A DNA stretch of 64,000 nt from Candidatus Latescibacterota bacterium (GTDB taxonomy: Bacteria; JAAXHH01), in assembly GCA_022822725.1 (NCBI GenBank), contig JAJEAN010000001.1, forward strand, positions 496,001 through 560,000, in the 5' to 3' direction. Both the position numbers and the translations under genes were made by a program. Each line of letters begins with the position of its first letter. The first letter of the stretch is position 1. Positions 30,468 through 38,159 of this stretch are shown here, piece after piece. The notes below the pieces were generated by a model, which saw only the letters and a program-made list of their open reading frames with translations, was not told the DNA's origin and did not search any database.

Positions 30468-30495
30468 TTGACACGTTGGGCGAGCACCCTATATT
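30468..30495 (+). promoter_or_regulatory. Strong promoter TTGACA-N16-TATATT for the lysW operon
   Basis: TTGACA at 30468-30473 and TATATT at 30490-30495, right after the gyrA stop. The leader of about 95 bases to lysW contains a GGGG-CCTT-CCCC hairpin near 30515-30528. Confidence 0.75.
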
Positions 30496-30593: not shown

Positions 30594-30758
30594 ATGGGGA
30601 TCTGCCCGGAATGTGGCGCCGAGATCCACTTGGACTATGATGTAGTGGTTGGCGAGATCATTACGTGCCCGGAGTGCGGTGCGGAACTGGAAGTGACCAG
30701 CGTCGACCCGTTGGAGTTCGCACTGGCCCCGGAAGAAGAGGAAGACTGGGGAGAATAA
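30594..30758 (+). CDS. lysW: Amino-group carrier protein LysW
   Basis: 54-residue carrier for LysW-mediated lysine/arginine biosynthesis. The gamma-carboxyl of its C-terminal glutamate is joined to the alpha-amino group of aminoadipate or glutamate, protecting it and handing it to LysZ, LysY, LysJ and LysK. Visible here: an N-terminal zinc ribbon with CPEC at residues 4-7 and CPEC at 25-28, an acidic C-terminal half, and the diagnostic end EEDWGE with terminal Glu54. Start ATG 30594. It is the first gene after the promoter at 30468, and it alone lies upstream of the attenuator-like element. Confidence 0.95.
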
Positions 30759-30778
30759 GCCCGCGGAGGGATATCAAG

Positions 30779-30856
30779 ATGAGCAAACGAATGAAACATA
30801 AACATGGCAAACATGATTGTGATTTGCGTTCGTCCGCTCATCGGGCCCCACGATAA
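30779..30856 (+). CDS. Lys/Arg/His-rich 25-residue leader peptide (proposed)
   Basis: A 25-codon ORF with a good ribosome-binding site (GGAGGG, 7 bases before ATG 30779). It contains four Lys, four Arg and four His, with eight basic residues among residues 3-12 (KRMKHKHGKH) and four more (Arg17, His21, Arg22, Arg25) towards the stop. It lies between lysW and an intrinsic terminator ahead of an operon for a basic amino acid that also holds hisS. I infer a leader peptide whose translation senses charged tRNAs for basic amino acids. Alternatives: a small metal-binding peptide, or a chance ORF. Confidence 0.6.
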   Translation: MSKRMKHKHGKHDCDLRSSAHRAPR

Positions 30857-30880
30857 CCCTTCGAAAGGGATAACGGGGCC
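30844..30880 (+). promoter_or_regulatory. Leader hairpin competing with the lysX terminator
   Basis: GGCCCC (30844-30849) pairs with GGGGCC (30875-30880), and inside it CCCTT (30857-30861) pairs with AAGGG (30865-30869). The hairpin overlaps the last codons and stop of the leader ORF. The segment TCGAAAGGG (30861-30869) can instead pair with CCTCTTCGA (30905-30913) of the terminator stem, with one mismatch and one G-U, so it could act as an antiterminator. Confidence 0.45.
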
Positions 30881-30893
30881 ACGGGAACAGTTG

Positions 30894-30942
30894 AGAGCCG
30901 TGTTCCTCTTCGATTGAGCGAAGAGGCCGGCTCTTTTTTTTT
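30894..30942 (+). terminator. Intrinsic terminator / attenuator between lysW and lysX genes
   Basis: AGAGCCG (30894-30900) pairs with CGGCTCT (30928-30934), and inside it CCTCTTCG (30905-30912) pairs perfectly with CGAAGAGG (30919-30926) around a six-base loop. Nine T residues follow (30934-30942). It is the strongest intrinsic terminator in the window, and it lies inside an operon, which suggests regulated termination. Confidence 0.85.
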
Positions 30943-30962
30943 GCACGCGGGGCAAGGGAACG

Positions 30963-30991
30963 CGGATATCCGAAATGACGCGGGATATCCG
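30963..30991. promoter_or_regulatory. Two GGATATCC dyads upstream of the lysX-like gene (operator candidate)
   Basis: A perfect 10-bp palindrome CGGATATCCG (30963-30972) and a second GGATATCC core (30983-30990), each followed by GAAA. The centres are 19 bp apart, close to two helical turns. They lie between the terminator and the start at 31024. CGGATATCCG also occurs by chance inside lysZ (35765), so the signal is modest. Confidence 0.3.
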
Positions 30992-31023
30992 AAAGACACG
31001 GAAACGCGGAGGAAGCGGGATCT

Positions 31024-31878
31024 ATGGAATTGGGCATCGTGCTGTCGCGTATCAGGAAGGACGAGAAGCGGCTGATCTCCGAGGCCGAACGCCGTGGCAT
31101 CGACGTGAAGACGATCGACAACACGCGCCTGGTCTTCGAACTGGACCGGCGCCATATGGACCTGGACGTGGTCCTGGAACGCTGTATCGATCACCATCGG
31201 GCCGTGTACGCGCTGACGGTCTTCGACCACTGGGGCATTCCGACGGTGAACCGACAATCGGTGGTGGAGACGTACGGGAACCGGTTGCTTACGTCCCTGG
31301 CCCTGCGGGAGAACGGGGTGCCGGTGCCGGAAGTGCGCGTGGCATACACGCCGCAATCCGCCCTGGAAGCCATGGAGGACATGGGTTACCCGGTTGTCCT
31401 CCGGCCCGTGGAAGGCCCCGAGGGCCAGCTCGTTTCCCGCATCGGGGACAAGTATACGGCGGCGACGGTCCTGGAGCACAAGCGCATACTCGGCGCCTAT
31501 CACCACTCCATCTTCTTCATGCAAAAGCACATCGATATGCCCGGACACGACATCAGGGCGTACGTGGTCGGCGACGAGACGGTGGCCGCCGTCTCGGTGC
31601 TGACCCACCACTGGATCGGGACCATCACCGCCGGCGGCCTGATGAAGCAGGAGCCTGTCACGGAGGAGCTGAACGACCTGGCGGTCGCCGCCGTCCGGGC
31701 GATCGGCGGTGGCATCGCGGTGGTGGACATGGTCCGCACGAAGGACGCGTGGTTCGTGCAGGAAATGGGCCCGCCGTCCGGGCTGTCGGACGCGTCGGAC
31801 GCCACGGGGGTCAACATACCGGGCAAGATCATGGACTACGTGGCGGACGCGGTGCCGCGGGGAGGGCGTGACTCGTGA
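31024..31878 (+). CDS. LysX-like ATP-grasp protein with degenerate active site
   Basis: 284 residues, a paralogue of the LysX encoded next to it; the two align without gaps from the N-terminus to about residue 270. Key positions differ. The ATP-binding Lys127 of LysX (VVKPP) is Arg; the glycine loop GSWGR (131-135) is GPEGQ; the QEYV segment is QKHI; Arg175 of PGRDIR is His; Arg192 is Val; and the Mg-binding NEVN (246-249) is QEMG, so the last Asn is Gly. One Asp (VVDM) and the Glu of the metal site remain. It may be a pseudoenzyme, for example a regulatory partner of LysX, or a ligase with changed chemistry. Start ATG 31024 has GGAGG at 31016. Its stop overlaps the lysX start. Confidence 0.85.
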
Positions 31879-32714
31879 AGATCGGCATGCTGCTGTCCAT
31901 CGTTTCCACGGAGCAGAAGATGCTCTTCGAGGCCGCCGCGAAACGGGGCATCGTCTTCGACCGGCTGGACGACCGGCGGATCGTCTTCGACCTGGAGAAC
32001 CACCGGTACGACCACGACGTCATACTCGAACGGTGCATCAACCACTCCAGGGCCCTCAACTCGCTTAAGATACTCAACGCCGCCGGCATCAGGACCGTCA
32101 ACAACTACGAGGTGGCCCGCGTGTGCGGGAACAAGTTCCTGACGACCATGGCGCTGGTGGACCACGGGGTGCCGACGCCGAAGGCCCGCGTAGCCTTCAC
32201 GGCCGAGTCGGCGCTGGAGGAAATGGAATCCATGGGCTATCCCGTCGTGGTCAAGCCGCCCATCGGCTCGTGGGGGCGCCTCATCGCGCGGGTCAACGAC
32301 CGTCACGCCGCCGAAGCGGTGCTCGAGCACAAGGAGACGCTCGGCTCCTACCAGCATTCGGTAATCTACATGCAGGAGTACGTGGACAAGCCCGGACGCG
32401 ACATCCGGTCGTTCGTGGTAGACGGCGAGACCATCTGCGCCGTCTACCGGTACTCGGACCACTGGAAGACCAACACCGCCCTGGGCGGGACGACGGCCGA
32501 CTGTCCCGTGGAGGGCGAGGTGGGCACGCTTTCATCCCGTGCCGCGGAAGCCGTGGGCGGCGGCGTGGTGGCCGTCGACCTGCTGGAATCGCCGGACGGG
32601 ATCCTGGTCAACGAGGTCAATTACACCATGGAATTCCGAAACAGCATTCAACCGACGGGCGTGGACATTCCCGGCCGAATCATCGATTATCTGGTAAAGG
32701 TGGCCCGATCATGA
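31875..32714 (+). CDS. lysX: LysW-alpha-aminoadipate (or glutamate) ligase LysX
   Basis: ATP-grasp ligase of the RimK type that joins the substrate amino group to the C-terminal Glu of LysW. 279 residues from GTG 31875, overlapping the previous stop (GTGA). All hallmark residues are visible: [12 protein letters not shown] with Lys127, [48 protein letters not shown] and [13 protein letters not shown] with the metal ligands. Whether the substrate is aminoadipate (lysine) or glutamate (arginine) cannot be settled by eye; the presence of argJ elsewhere favours lysine. Confidence 0.92.
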
Positions 32715-33754
32715 TCAAGGTTTCAATCGCCGGCGCGTCCGGCTACGGTGGAGGCGAACTGCTCCGCCTGCTCCTGTTCCACCCGGAAATCGAAATCGGG
32801 CAGGTGACGTCGGAGTCGCTCGCGGGCAAGCCCGTCGGCCGGTCCCATCCGAACCTGCGGCGGGTCACGGACCTCAAGTTCAGCGCCCTGGCCGACCTCG
32901 AGCCCTGCGACGTCCTGTGCCTGTGCCTGCCCCACGGGGAGGCGATGGCAAGGTGGGACGCCTTTTCCGGCCTGTCGTCCCGATTCGTCGACCTGAGCGC
33001 GGATTTCCGGCTGCGGGACGCGGCGGACTATCCGACCTGGTACGGACATGAGCATGCCCATCCCGATGTCCTCGGACGATTCGTGTACGGCCTGGCCGAA
33101 CTCTACCGGGACGAAATCAGGGACGCCGAGCACGTCGCGTGCACCGGGTGCCTGGCCGCCACGGCGATCCTGTCGCTCGCGCCCCTCGTCAGGGCCGGCG
33201 CCGTCGACCCCTCCCGTCTCGTCATGGAGGGAAAGATCGGGTCCTCCGCGGCGGGTCACCGCGCCGACCGGTCCACCCACCACCCGGACCGCAGCGGGGC
33301 CGTGCGGTCCTTCAAGCCCACGGGCCATCGCCACACGGCGGAGATCGTGCAGGAGCTGACCTTCGGCGGGCAGGCCCCCACGGTCCATTTCTCAGCGACG
33401 GCGATCGAGCTGGTGCGCGGCATCCTGATGACAACGCACGCTTTTGCGAACGGCAACCTGTCCGACAGGGATATCTGGGGCATCTACCGGGAGGCCTATG
33501 GCCGGGAACCCTTCATCCGCATCATCAAGGAACGCCAGGGCGTGTTCCGGTATCCCGACCCGAAGTTCCTCGCGGGCACCAATTACTGCGACATCGGGTT
33601 CGAGCGCGACGATCACAGCGACCGGGTCGTGGTGATGGGTGCGCTGGACAACCTGGTCAAGGGCGCGGCCGGACAGGCCGTGCAGGCCCTCAACATCATG
33701 CACGGGTGGGACGAGCGGACGGGCCTGGAGTTTCCGGGCCTCCACCCGGTATAG
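32711..33754 (+). CDS. lysY: LysW-aminoadipate/glutamate semialdehyde dehydrogenase (LysY/ArgC)
   Basis: NADPH-dependent reduction of the LysW-bound acyl phosphate to the semialdehyde. 347 residues from ATG 32711, overlapping the lysX stop by ATGA. N-terminal Rossmann motif [24 protein letters not shown], and the catalytic cysteine Cys147 in ACTGCLATA-like context (CTGCLAA). It belongs to the ArgC superfamily; place in the operon decides the LysY name. Confidence 0.93.
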
Positions 33755-33761
33755 GACGGAT

Positions 33762-35027
33762 ATGAACTACAGGGCACCGAGAGGCACCTACGACATCCTG
33801 CCCGAAGACCAGGCCTTCTGGCGCCACGTGACCGAGACCACGCGCCGGGTCTGCGAACTCTTCGGCTATGAGCAGATCGACGTGCCGGTCTTCGAGCAGG
33901 CCGGCCTATTCGAGCGGAGCGTCGGCGAATCCACGGACATCGTGGAGAAGGAGATGTACACCTTCCTCGACCGCAGCGACGAGCGCATGACCCTGCGCCC
34001 CGAGTTCACCGCCGGGATCTGCCGGGCCTACGCCGAGCGCAAGCTGCACGGCCGCCCCCAGCCCCTGCGGCTCTTCACCATCGGTCCGGCCTTCCGTTAC
34101 GAGCGTCCCCAGGCGGGCCGGTACCGCCAGTTCTACCAGATCGACGTGGAGGTTCTGGGCAGCCAGGACCCGGCCATCGATCTCGAAGTCATGCAGGTCG
34201 CCTGGCAGATCTACGAAGCGGTCGGCATCTCGGGGCTCTCCTTCCAGGTGAACAGCACGGGATGTCCGAAGTGCCGGCCGGTATACATCGATGCGCTTAA
34301 AACCTGGTACGCGCCGCGCCTGGACGAGGTTTGCGGCGACTGCGCCCGCCGCTACGAGCAGAACCCGCTGCGGCTGCTGGACTGCAAGAAAGAGACCTGC
34401 CGGCGGATAGCGGACGAGGCGCCGCGGATCGCGGATTACCTGTGCGAAGAATGCGAAAGCCACTTCAGCCGCCTGCGGTCCTACCTGGACGACCTGGGAC
34501 GGCCTTACCAGGTCAACCATCGACTGGTACGGGGATTCGACTACTATACGAAGACCGTGTTCGAGGTCTGGGCCGAGGGCATAGGGGCGCAGAACGCGGT
34601 GTGCGGAGGCGGCCGCTACGACGGGCTGATCGGTTTGGTCGGCGGTCCGGAGACGCCGGCGATCGGATTCGCCTCCGGCATCGAACGCATCATACTCACG
34701 ATGAAGCAGGAGGGGATCGAGCCTCCCGGAATGGCGAAGCCGAGGGTATTCGTCGCCTATCTCGGCACGGAAGCCAAGTCCGCCGCGGTGGTCCTGGCGC
34801 AGGAGCTGCGCGCGGCCGGCGTAGGCGCGACGGCACTATGGGAAGACCGGAGCCTGAAGGCCCAGATGAGACAGGCCGACCGGCTCGGCGCCGCTTATGC
34901 CCTGATCATCGGTGAGGAAGAGGTGAGAAACGGCGTCGTGATGATCCGGCGCATGGCGGACAGCACGCAGGCGTCCGTGCCCCGATCGGAGGTCGTGGCC
35001 GCCGTTAAAGAAGGGGATACTTCATGA
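33762..35027 (+). CDS. hisS: Histidyl-tRNA synthetase
   Basis: Charges tRNA-His. 421 residues from ATG 33762. Class II motifs are visible: motif 2 in RLFTIGPAFRYERPQAGRYRQFYQIDVE, the histidine A-loop LVRGFDYYTKTVFE and motif 3 GFASGIERI; the C-terminal anticodon domain ends the protein. A cysteine-rich insert (CPKC, CGDC, CKKETC, CEEC between residues about 165 and 235) is of the kind seen in many bacterial HisRS. It is embedded in the LysW operon between lysY and lysZ, and its stop overlaps the lysZ start (ATGA). Confidence 0.95.
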   Translation: MNYRAPRGTYDILPEDQAFWRHVTETTRRVCELFGYEQIDVPVFEQAGLFERSVGESTDIVEKEMYTFLDRSDERMTLRPEFTAGICRAYAERKLHGRPQPLRLFTIGPAFRYERPQAGRYRQFYQIDVEVLGSQDPAIDLEVMQVAWQIYEAVGISGLSFQVNSTGCPKCRPVYIDALKTWYAPRLDEVCGDCARRYEQNPLRLLDCKKETCRRIADEAPRIADYLCEECESHFSRLRSYLDDLGRPYQVNHRLVRGFDYYTKTVFEVWAEGIGAQNAVCGGGRYDGLIGLVGGPETPAIGFASGIERIILTMKQEGIEPPGMAKPRVFVAYLGTEAKSAAVVLAQELRAAGVGATALWEDRSLKAQMRQADRLGAAYALIIGEEEVRNGVVMIRRMADSTQASVPRSEVVAAVKEGDTS

Positions 35028-35821
35028 TCGTGGTGAAGACGGGCGGAAGCCGGGGCATCAACCTGGATTACGTCCTGGAAGACATCGCACGGCAGACCGA
35101 ACCGCTGGTGCTGGTGCACGGCGCGTCCGACGAGTTGAACCAGATCTCCGCGCAACTGGGCAAGCCGCCCCGCATGGTCACATCGCCGTCGGGGTACACG
35201 AGCCGGGTCACCGATCCGGAAACACTGGACATCTTCACCATGGTGTACTGCGGAAAGCGCAACGCCCGCATCGTCGAGAAACTGCAGCAGCTCGGTGTCA
35301 ACGCCGTCGGATTGAGCGGCGTGGACGGCCGCCTGCTCGAGGGCCGCCGGAAACCCAATATCCGCATCGTGGAGGACGGCAGGACGAAGATCCTGCGGGA
35401 CGACTACACCGGCCGGATCGAACGGGCGAACGTGTCGCTCCTGACCACGCTCCTCGACCAGGGTTACCTGCCCGTGATCAGTCCACCGGCCATCAGCTAC
35501 GAAGGCGAGATGATCAACGTGGACGGGGACCGCGCGGCTGCCGTGATCGCCGACGCCCTCGGCGCGGAACGGCTGGTCATACTTTCCAACACGCCGGGGT
35601 TCCTGGAGGATGCGGACGATGAGAACACGCTGATACCCCGGATATCCCGTGACGAAATCGACCAGGCGATCGAGACCCATGCCCGGGACCGCATGAAGAA
35701 GAAGCTGCTCGGCGCGAAGGAGGCGCTGGAGGTCGGCGTGGGGCAGGTGATCCTGGGGGACGGACGGATATCCGAACCGGTCACGGCGGCACTGCGCGGC
35801 ACGGGCACGGTGATCGGATGA
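35024..35821 (+). CDS. lysZ: LysW-aminoadipate/glutamate kinase (LysZ/ArgB)
   Basis: Phosphorylates the side-chain carboxylate of the LysW-bound substrate. 265 residues of the amino-acid kinase family: VVKTGGS at the N-terminus, LVHGASDELN, GYTSRVTD, and INVDGDRAAAVIADAL near the ATP site. It lacks the N-terminal extension of arginine-sensitive NAG kinases, as usual for LysZ. Confidence 0.92.
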   Translation: MIVVKTGGSRGINLDYVLEDIARQTEPLVLVHGASDELNQISAQLGKPPRMVTSPSGYTSRVTDPETLDIFTMVYCGKRNARIVEKLQQLGVNAVGLSGVDGRLLEGRRKPNIRIVEDGRTKILRDDYTGRIERANVSLLTTLLDQGYLPVISPPAISYEGEMINVDGDRAAAVIADALGAERLVILSNTPGFLEDADDENTLIPRISRDEIDQAIETHARDRMKKKLLGAKEALEVGVGQVILGDGRISEPVTAALRGTGTVIG

Positions 35822-35849: not shown

Positions 35850-37106
35850 ATGACAGACTACCAGGCCATGGAAAACCAGGCGTCGATGGGCATCCTGCCC
35901 AAGCGGGACGTGGTGATCGTCCGGGGCAGCGGCGCGCGCGTCTGGGACAGTGACGGCAAGGACTACATCGACTGCATCGGCGGGATCGGCACGGCCAATG
36001 TCGGCCACTGCCATCCGGCCGTGACGGAGGCGATCGCGCGGCAGGCGGAGCGGCTCGTGATCTGTCCGGACACCTTCTACAACGACCTCCGGGCGGAACT
36101 GGCCACGGCCCTGACCCGGGCCGCCCCCGAGGGGTTGGACCGGCTCTTCCTGTGCAATTCGGGTACGGAGGCCGTGGAAGCAGCGTTCAAATTCGCCCGT
36201 GTCGCCACAGGACGCACCGGCGTGATCGCGGCCCAGCGCGGATTCCACGGACGCACCTTCGGCGCCCTCAGCGCGACCTGGAATCCCAAGTACCGCGCCC
36301 CCTTCGAACCCCTCGTGCCCGGTTTCACCCACGTGAAATACAACGATGTCTCCGTCATGGAGGAATCCATCGGCGACGATACGGCGGCGGTGATCCTGGA
36401 GGTGGTGCAGGGCGAGGGCGGCGTTCGCATCGGCGACGGCGCATACCTGAACCGCGTCGCGGCCCTGTGCCGGGAACGGGGCGCCCTGTTCATCGTGGAC
36501 GAAGTGCAGACCGGGTTCGGGAGGACGGGCGCCCTGTTCGCCTGCGAGCACCATGGACTGCGGCCGGACATGCTTTGCCTGGCCAAGGCCATGGCCGGCG
36601 GCCTGCCCGTGGGCGCGACGCTCTGCGCCGAAACGGTCCGGGACATCCCGGCCATGTCCCACGGCAACACCTTCGGCGGCAGTCCGGTGGTCTGCGCGGC
36701 CGGCCTGGCCACGCTGCGTGTGCTGGAGGAGGAGGAACTCGTCGAGAACGCCCGGGAGAACGGCGCGTATTTCCAGGATGCCCTCAGGGCGCTGAACGCG
36801 CCCTTTGTCCGGGAGGTCCGGGGCATGGGCCTGATCATCGGCGTCGAGATGAAGGGACGGGTCACCCCCATCCTCCGCGGACTCATGGAACGCGGGGTGA
36901 TGGCCCTGCCCGCGGGCAATACGGTGCTGCGCTTCCTCCCGCCCCTGACGATTTCCAGGGAGGAGATCGACCGGGTGGTGGAGGCGGTGAAAGCGGTGCT
37001 GGGATCGTTGGAGAAAAGTCCGTCAGACCGCGGTAACCGTGCGGATGCGCAGGCCCGGGACGGCAGACGCACGCGGCGAAGTCCGACCGGAGCCCTGGAG
37101 GCTTAA
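35850..37106 (+). CDS. lysJ: LysW-lysine/ornithine aminotransferase (LysJ/ArgD)
   Basis: PLP-dependent class III aminotransferase that converts the LysW-bound semialdehyde to the amine. 418 residues. The PLP lysine is Lys246 in LAKAMAGGLPVGA; FIVDEVQTGFGRTG and FCNSGTEA-like LCNSGTEAVEAAFK are also present. The last 30 residues after the conserved domain are basic and low in complexity. lysK follows with no gap. Confidence 0.93.
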   Translation: MTDYQAMENQASMGILPKRDVVIVRGSGARVWDSDGKDYIDCIGGIGTANVGHCHPAVTEAIARQAERLVICPDTFYNDLRAELATALTRAAPEGLDRLFLCNSGTEAVEAAFKFARVATGRTGVIAAQRGFHGRTFGALSATWNPKYRAPFEPLVPGFTHVKYNDVSVMEESIGDDTAAVILEVVQGEGGVRIGDGAYLNRVAALCRERGALFIVDEVQTGFGRTGALFACEHHGLRPDMLCLAKAMAGGLPVGATLCAETVRDIPAMSHGNTFGGSPVVCAAGLATLRVLEEEELVENARENGAYFQDALRALNAPFVREVRGMGLIIGVEMKGRVTPILRGLMERGVMALPAGNTVLRFLPPLTISREEIDRVVEAVKAVLGSLEKSPSDRGNRADAQARDGRRTRRSPTGALEA

Positions 37107-38159
37107 GTGAGTCGCGACCGCGAAGACATCGCGCTGCTGCGAGACCTGGTCGAGCGTTACAGTCCTTCCATGCAGGAGGGAGAGGCCGTTTCCTTCCTGG
37201 TGGACGCCATGGACCGGAGAGGGCTCCGCGCCCGCGTGGACGAAGCCGGGAACGCGGTGGGCGAGGCGGGCCGCGGCGAACCGCACATCGCCCTGGTCGG
37301 GCATATCGACACGGTACCCGGCATCGTCCCCGTGCGGGAAGAATCAGGCAGGCTTTACGGCCGCGGCACGGTGGACGCCAAGGGTCCCCTGGCCGCATTC
37401 ACCGCCGCCGCGAGCCGGTTTTCGGAAACCGGCAACGGCCGGATCACCGTCGTCGGCGCCGTGGAGGAGGAGTGCCCCACCTCGAAGGGCGCCCGCCACC
37501 TGATGGACCGCATGCGCCCCGACTGCGTGTTCATCGGCGAACCGAGCGGCTGGGACAGCGTCACCATCGGGTACAAGGGCCACGTGGGATTCGACTACCG
37601 CCTGGAGCAGCCCAACGCCCATCACGCGGGGAACCACCGGCGCGCGGGTGAGCAGGCCATTGGCCTCTATAACGCGCTTCAGACGCGCGTCGCCGGCCAG
37701 GCCACGGAAAGCGAATTCGGGTCTCCACGGCTCGAATTAAGGCGATTCAGAACATCGGATGAGGGGTTGACCGAGGGCGTCGAGGCGTATTTCTCGGTGC
37801 GCGTCCCCCCCGGTTACGACCTGGACGGCCTGATCGATTTCGTGATGGACCGGGCGGCCCCGGCGGAAATCGATTGCGACCAGCGCCTGCCGGGCGTCGT
37901 CGCCGAGAAGAACACGCCACTGATCCGGGCCCTGTTGCGGGGCATCCGCCAGGAAGGCGGCCGTCCGACCTTCAAGAAGAAGACGGGCACGTCCGACATG
38001 TGCATCGTCGGGCCGGCCTGGAATTGCCCGATCGCGGCCTACGGTCCCGGCGACTCCAGCCTGGACCATACCCCGGACGAGCACATCGTCCTGGAAGAAT
38101 ACCTGCGGTCCGTCGAGGTGTTGACGACGGCGCTGCATCAGCTCACCTCAGCCGAATAA
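37107..38159 (+). CDS. lysK: LysW-lysine/ornithine hydrolase (LysK/ArgE family)
   Basis: M20-family metallopeptidase that releases lysine (or ornithine) from LysW. 350 residues. GTG start immediately after the lysJ stop. Metal ligands are seen in VGHIDTVPG (His), GTVDAKGPLAAF (Asp), EEECPTSKG (Glu pair), FIGEPSG (Glu) and the late His in DSSLDHTPDEHI. Last gene of the operon; a convergent gene follows after 92 bases. Confidence 0.93.
   Translation: MSRDREDIALLRDLVERYSPSMQEGEAVSFLVDAMDRRGLRARVDEAGNAVGEAGRGEPHIALVGHIDTVPGIVPVREESGRLYGRGTVDAKGPLAAFTAAASRFSETGNGRITVVGAVEEECPTSKGARHLMDRMRPDCVFIGEPSGWDSVTIGYKGHVGFDYRLEQPNAHHAGNHRRAGEQAIGLYNALQTRVAGQATESEFGSPRLELRRFRTSDEGLTEGVEAYFSVRVPPGYDLDGLIDFVMDRAAPAEIDCDQRLPGVVAEKNTPLIRALLRGIRQEGGRPTFKKKTGTSDMCIVGPAWNCPIAAYGPGDSSLDHTPDEHIVLEEYLRSVEVLTTALHQLTSAE

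Follow-up and report, generated by a model that had tools for sequence, protein, structure and literature searches.

Ribosome-mediated attenuators control the his, thr, ilv and trp operons of Proteobacteria, and leaders with mixed codons exist, such as that of thr with its Thr and Ile codons. Leader-peptide attenuation has been described mainly in Proteobacteria and Actinobacteria, and in some Firmicutes (PMC2965389, PMC1262725). In bacilli, leader ORFs with His codons and a premature terminator are found upstream of hisS* and hisZ (PMC2965389). The trpS and leuS genes of Streptomyces are under leader-peptide attenuators, and no RNA element was found upstream of lysine operons in a survey of Actinobacteria (PMC1262725). 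For the SpeFL/ORF34 leader of speF, it has been proposed that a ribosome at the stop codon blocks a hairpin just downstream (PMC6386406). The type of switch is therefore known, but our search of mostly freely available literature found no lysine leader-peptide attenuator, no attenuator of a LysW operon and none for the phylum studied here.

Here we analysed a window of 64,000 nucleotides (positions 496001-560000 of its contig, in a 3.8-Mb genome) from a Candidatus Latescibacterota bacterium. The host group is uncultured and mostly sponge-associated, and it was described from reef sponges (PMC12993501). At a probability of about two in three, we read the element between lysW and lysX as a ribosome-mediated transcription attenuator inside the operon. 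A leader peptide with Lys and His residues would govern an operon for lysine, of which hisS is also a part. Such an element would resemble the Proteobacterial attenuators in having cognate codons in a short leader ORF, a stem within this ORF, a further hairpin and an intrinsic terminator. Unlike these, it follows the first gene of the operon, its codons are those for Lys and His, its phylum is uncultured and an antiterminator is not clearly conserved. As far as the descriptions go, it has in common with the His leaders of bacilli a His-codon leader ORF upstream of a histidyl-tRNA synthetase gene and a premature terminator, whereas no lysine codons and no lysine operon have been reported for those leaders (PMC2965389). 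The trpS and leuS genes of Streptomyces likewise are aminoacyl-tRNA synthetase genes under leader-peptide attenuation, but they are single-gene targets with Trp or Leu codons (PMC1262725).

Layout of the operon and its probable product

All features described here lie on the forward strand. The lysW gene, which encodes the amino-group carrier protein, is found at 30594-30758 (TIGR01206, 71 bits, cut-off 53.2), upstream of the putative attenuator. The first gene past the terminator (31024-31878) encodes a divergent LysX paralog, a RimK-like ATP-grasp ligase (TIGR02144, 242 bits, below the cut-off of 275.6). It is followed by lysX, the alpha-aminoadipate:LysW ligase gene (31875-32714; TIGR02144, 326 bits, over the cut-off), a lysY/argC-type reductase gene (32717-33754; TIGR01850, 375.5 bits), hisS for the histidine-tRNA ligase (33759-35027; TIGR00442, 490.6 bits), lysZ for the [LysW]-aminoadipate kinase (35024-35821; NF010659, 389.2 bits), a lysJ-type aminotransferase gene (35850-37106; NF042418/TIGR00707) and lysK for the [LysW]-lysine hydrolase (37107-38159; NF003367, 402.5 bits). 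These family profile matches support an earlier note on this DNA, which had proposed that the downstream operon makes a basic amino acid and contains hisS.

The two neighbouring LysX proteins are 42% identical. The divergent copy has VQEMG and its neighbour, like Thermus LysX, has VNEVN; the activity of the divergent copy may be lost or changed. Both copies are present in every genome of the phylum that bears the lysW-lysX junction. Three genera of the family have hisS between lysY and lysZ (in the window and at loci L044-L052); these are both leader-bearing genera and one genus without the leader.

Lysine is the likely product of the operon, as judged from the gene content. This assignment is by elimination, a point against the attenuator reading, because no dedicated homocitrate synthase for the first steps was found: the search for this enzyme returned only 2-isopropylmalate-synthase-like proteins and a weak aldolase-like match. 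Arginine is disfavoured as the product, since the genome has a classical argB of its own, next to which lie argD- and argH-like frames, and argG and argJ are also present. In line with lysine as the product, a search of two genomes of the genus (G000, G003) found no lysA, the diaminopimelate decarboxylase gene, which two other genera of the family do have (G012, G013, G014).

A conserved leader ORF with invariant Lys and His codons

We compared 16 genomes of the phylum, 12 of which belong to the genus of the window genome. The lysW-lysX junction is present in 15 of them, i.e. in the 12 genus genomes, in one genome of a second genus and in two outgroup genomes. In 12/12 genus genomes and in the second-genus genome, which belongs to the same family, lysW is followed by a 78-nt ORF, the terminator and lysX. 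The earlier note had proposed an attenuator with a basic leader peptide at this place, a claim that relatives keeping the junction without the short ORF or its basic codons would speak against; all 13 genomes of the two genera favour it.

The predicted leader ORF (30779-30856) starts with ATG at 30779, ends with TAA at 30854-30856 and encodes 25 residues, MSKRMKHKHGKHDCDLRSSAHRAPR. As described before, 12 of the 25 residues are Lys, Arg or His, eight of them within residues 3-12. The ORF is preceded by the Shine-Dalgarno sequence GGAGGG (30765-30770; AGGAAA-type in most relatives), with a spacing of eight bases to the ATG and not the seven given earlier. In all 13 genomes a short ORF with a predicted ribosome-binding site lies ahead of the genes that would be controlled. 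Its length of 78 nt is kept in the 13 genomes while the stop codon varies between TAA, TGA and TAG. The distance from the stop to the end of the T-run is 85-87 nt in the genus and 95 nt in the second genus.

The likely sensor, judged by codon invariance, is the Lys/Arg/His cluster at codons 3-12 (30785-30814; AAA CGA ATG AAA CAT AAA CAT GGC AAA CAT). No variation, even at synonymous positions, is seen among the 12/12 genus genomes at codons 3, 4, 6, 7, 8, 9 and 12 (Lys, Arg, Lys, His, Lys, His, His), and the second genus has the same codons at 4, 6, 8 and 9 (CGA, AAA, AAA, CAT). In the lysX control from the same 12 genomes, the codon is invariant in only 6 of the 33 conserved Lys/His/Arg columns. 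The leader uses only AAA for Lys and only CAT for His, the minority codons of this GC-rich genome (18% of Lys codons and 23% of His codons in the genes of the window). With a Lys+His fraction of 0.32 (0.33 from the internal ATG), the leader is at the top of the 416 short ATG-initiated frames in the window, and the next unrelated short frame reaches 0.185. The leader is enriched in codons for the amino acids that the operon makes or charges, i.e. His through hisS and Lys through the LysW pathway if lysine, assigned by elimination, is its product.

At the amino-acid level the leader is only moderately conserved (pN 0.11 and pS 0.25, compared to pN 0.06 and pS 0.42 for lysX), which counts against the attenuator reading. 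The ORF might instead encode a functional small metal-binding protein, as its product is basic, contains His and Cys and is conserved in length. We give this very little credence, since the amino-acid constraint is weak compared to lysX, the constraint on codon choice is strong and the place before the terminator is fixed.

Arrest peptides usually need residues of their C-terminal half. In the leader this half varies (positions 19, 21, 23 and 25) and is mostly different in the second genus, which makes it improbable that the basic peptide arrests the ribosome on a free metabolite (e.g. lysine or ornithine), like SpeFL with ornithine. The composition and order of the element, with a basic, His-rich ORF and a stop inside the downstream hairpin, do recall SpeFL/ORF34 (PMC6386406), which is also a basic His-containing short ORF with a hairpin just past its stop. 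That leader, however, acts by Rho-dependent termination and RNA decay and not by an intrinsic terminator, and it controls the catabolic gene speF. An ornithine arrest peptide of the SpeFL type was rejected, as the DUF2618 core HIRRT*HIMM (taken from PMC6386406) is absent from the leader when compared by eye.

Hairpins and terminator

When the region 30759-30960 was folded, a z of -5.96 was obtained and none of 200 shuffles was as stable. Hairpin 1 (A:B, about 30778-30842) pairs the 5′ half of the ORF with its 3′ half. The Lys/His codons 3-12 are part of the 5′ arm, where classical attenuators have their regulatory codons. The earlier note had correctly listed the second hairpin and the terminator but overlooked this hairpin within the ORF. 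Its basal stem has the same codon register in both genera, with changes on both sides at two pairs, and could be opened by a ribosome on the regulatory codons. The sequence of hairpin 1 is near-invariant within the genus, and its upper part is not kept in the second genus.

Hairpin 2 (C:D, 30844-30880) has the stop codon of the ORF in its 5′ half and pairs GGCCCC (30844-30849) with GGGGCC (30875-30880). This hairpin was found again by sequence and folding, with 5-6 of the 6 pairs in 12/12 genus genomes and a register that differs by one base from one half of the genus to the other. In the one genome of the second genus it did not form in the folding.

A two-part intrinsic terminator follows at 30893-30942. 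Its lower stem pairs 30893-30899 with 30929-30935 and its upper stem 30905-30912 with 30919-30926, with a five-base bulge (GTGTT) on the 5′ side and nine T at 30934-30942. The near-perfect stem and the T-run are thus as reported earlier, and they are conserved: both helices are 100% paired in 13 sequences, with one pair changed on both sides. In the hairpin-1 stem and the terminator 93.5% of cells pair, compared to 39-56% for slid-partner controls. The covariation is real but thin, because both-side changes occur in only three cells.

A covariance model built from the 13 copies was run against the 16 genomes, where it recovered every copy once and no other convincing match. Each genus member also gave a weak second match, which falls on the opposite strand of the element itself. 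The element had no match in Rfam, either at the gathering score or at E up to 5, and a lysine riboswitch or a T-box was rejected on this basis. The lysine (L-box) riboswitch also puts lysine genes under RNA control, but here an ORF that is predicted to be translated is present. The very stable fold and the near-invariant first hairpin within the genus would suit a metabolite-binding RNA with an open frame in its conserved stem by chance. We consider such a riboswitch a slim prospect: besides the Rfam result, the reading frame, its length and its stop persist despite base changes, and neither the upper part of hairpin 1 nor hairpin 2 is kept in the second genus.

Probable read-through into lysX

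The best promoter-like site upstream of lysW is the same in 13/13 genomes and is of the sigma-70 type, with TTGACA and TATATT separated by 16 nt (30468-30495, from a sequence scan). This site was not in the earlier note. The gap from the T-run to the ATG of lysX measures 28-33 nt in 8/13 genomes and 46 nt in two, and the remaining three have 66-81 nt. The sigma-70-type scan of these gaps in the 13 genomes gave a best match of at most 7/12, and it found no promoter-like site in the three gaps of 66-81 nt. As the gap is short in most genomes and holds no credible sigma-70-type promoter, expression from lysX onward should depend on read-through. An intrinsic terminator stands between the leader ORF and the genes that would be controlled, for which no other credible promoter was found. 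An operon boundary with a second promoter for lysX was rejected for the same reasons. The promoter-like site upstream, together with the lack of a credible one in the gap, argues for a switch or else for a partial stop of fixed strength. Between the terminator and lysX are short GCGGGATATCCGAAAGGAC-type repeats (30955-31005; also in L004 and L006), and their copy number varies among close relatives.

With a fixed partial stop, the terminator would simply keep lysW, the carrier needed in excess, above the enzymes, and the ORF would be incidental or protect the RNA without sensing anything. In line with this, the terminator lies between lysW and lysX in all 15 genomes with the junction, including two without the ORF, and lysW is upstream of it in every case, as the earlier note had stated for the window. 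Fixed polarity leaves unexplained the conserved 25-codon frame, the unvarying minority Lys/His codons and the stem with paired changes, and we regard it as unlikely, though less so than the other alternatives.

Candidate antiterminators

The earlier note had proposed an antiterminator that pairs 30861-30869 with 30905-30913. This pairing has 8 of 9 pairs in the window and 6-7 in the nearest relatives, but only 4-6 of 9 in the other half of the genus, and it was rejected as a conserved element. The stall point assumed near His21/Arg22 is not conserved either, since two genomes have Arg at codon 21 and the second genus has Thr at codon 22. Another candidate is the hairpin of GGGAACA (30883-30889) with TGTTCCT (30901-30907), which has 5-7 of 7 pairs in 12/12 genus genomes. 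It would take the 5′ arm of the terminator, and may in this way act as an antiterminator.

Folding with ribosome footprints gave different pictures in different genomes. In the half of the genus that includes the window, hairpin 2 is predicted to compete with a longer antiterminator that joins about 30866-30880 to 30898-30912. This antiterminator includes part of the pairing proposed earlier and forms best with a ribosome on codons 21-26. The other half of the genus and the second genus differ: there the equivalent of the 30883-30889/30901-30907 hairpin folds at almost any position of the ribosome. Competition of hairpin 2 with an antiterminator is clearly predicted in only seven genomes, whereas in the other six the candidate folds regardless of the ribosome, which counts against the attenuator reading.

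Distribution of the element

The two outgroup genomes, from other genera (L015, L016), have a strong terminator between lysW and lysX but no Lys/His leader ORF. One of them nevertheless has hisS in the operon, and the two genomes count against the attenuator reading. The terminator is found in 15/15 genomes of the phylum with the junction. The simplest history, as far as these genomes tell, would be an older terminator without a sensor and a leader ORF gained afterwards. The element was rejected as a common feature of LysW operons, as most Chloroflexota and other loci have only 0-11 nt between lysW and lysX. In two loci with lysW-lysX gaps of about 85 nt, no ORF of the leader kind was recognised.

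Discussion

The presence of an ORF with Lys/His codons just before a conserved terminator suggests that a slowed ribosome probably decides on the expression of the remaining operon. In such an attenuator, RNA polymerase would start upstream of lysW, transcribe lysW and the leader ORF, and then either stop at the terminator or read into lysX-lysY-hisS-lysZ-lysJ-lysK. Which of the two happens would depend on where the ribosome is on the 25-codon basic ORF. With ample charged tRNA-Lys and tRNA-His, the ribosome would clear the ORF, hairpins 1 and 2 could form, and the terminator would follow. Slow decoding at the Lys/His codons 3-12 would detain the ribosome where it covers the 5′ arm of hairpin 1, so that the RNA downstream might refold and more polymerases read through. 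From the analogy with known attenuators, we infer that starvation, presumably for one or both of these charged tRNAs, would favour read-through. The opposite sign of the switch is possible, since SpeFL/ORF34 suggests that a ribosome at the stop that blocks the downstream hairpin can be decisive as well (PMC6386406).

More tentatively, and less likely than not, a single leader may read two unrelated amino acids, Lys and His, at the same time, uncouple from within the operon the LysW carrier from its loading enzymes and also adjust histidyl-tRNA synthetase, with the sensor ORF having been added to an older terminator. If the attenuator reading is true, this would be a lysine-responsive switch that is neither a riboswitch nor a T-box. 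It would stand downstream of the carrier gene and not ahead of the whole operon, and it would tie histidyl-tRNA synthetase to the synthesis of lysine. The two outgroups, which have a terminator but no ORF, would then suggest how switches of this kind arise, with the sensor coming later than the terminator.
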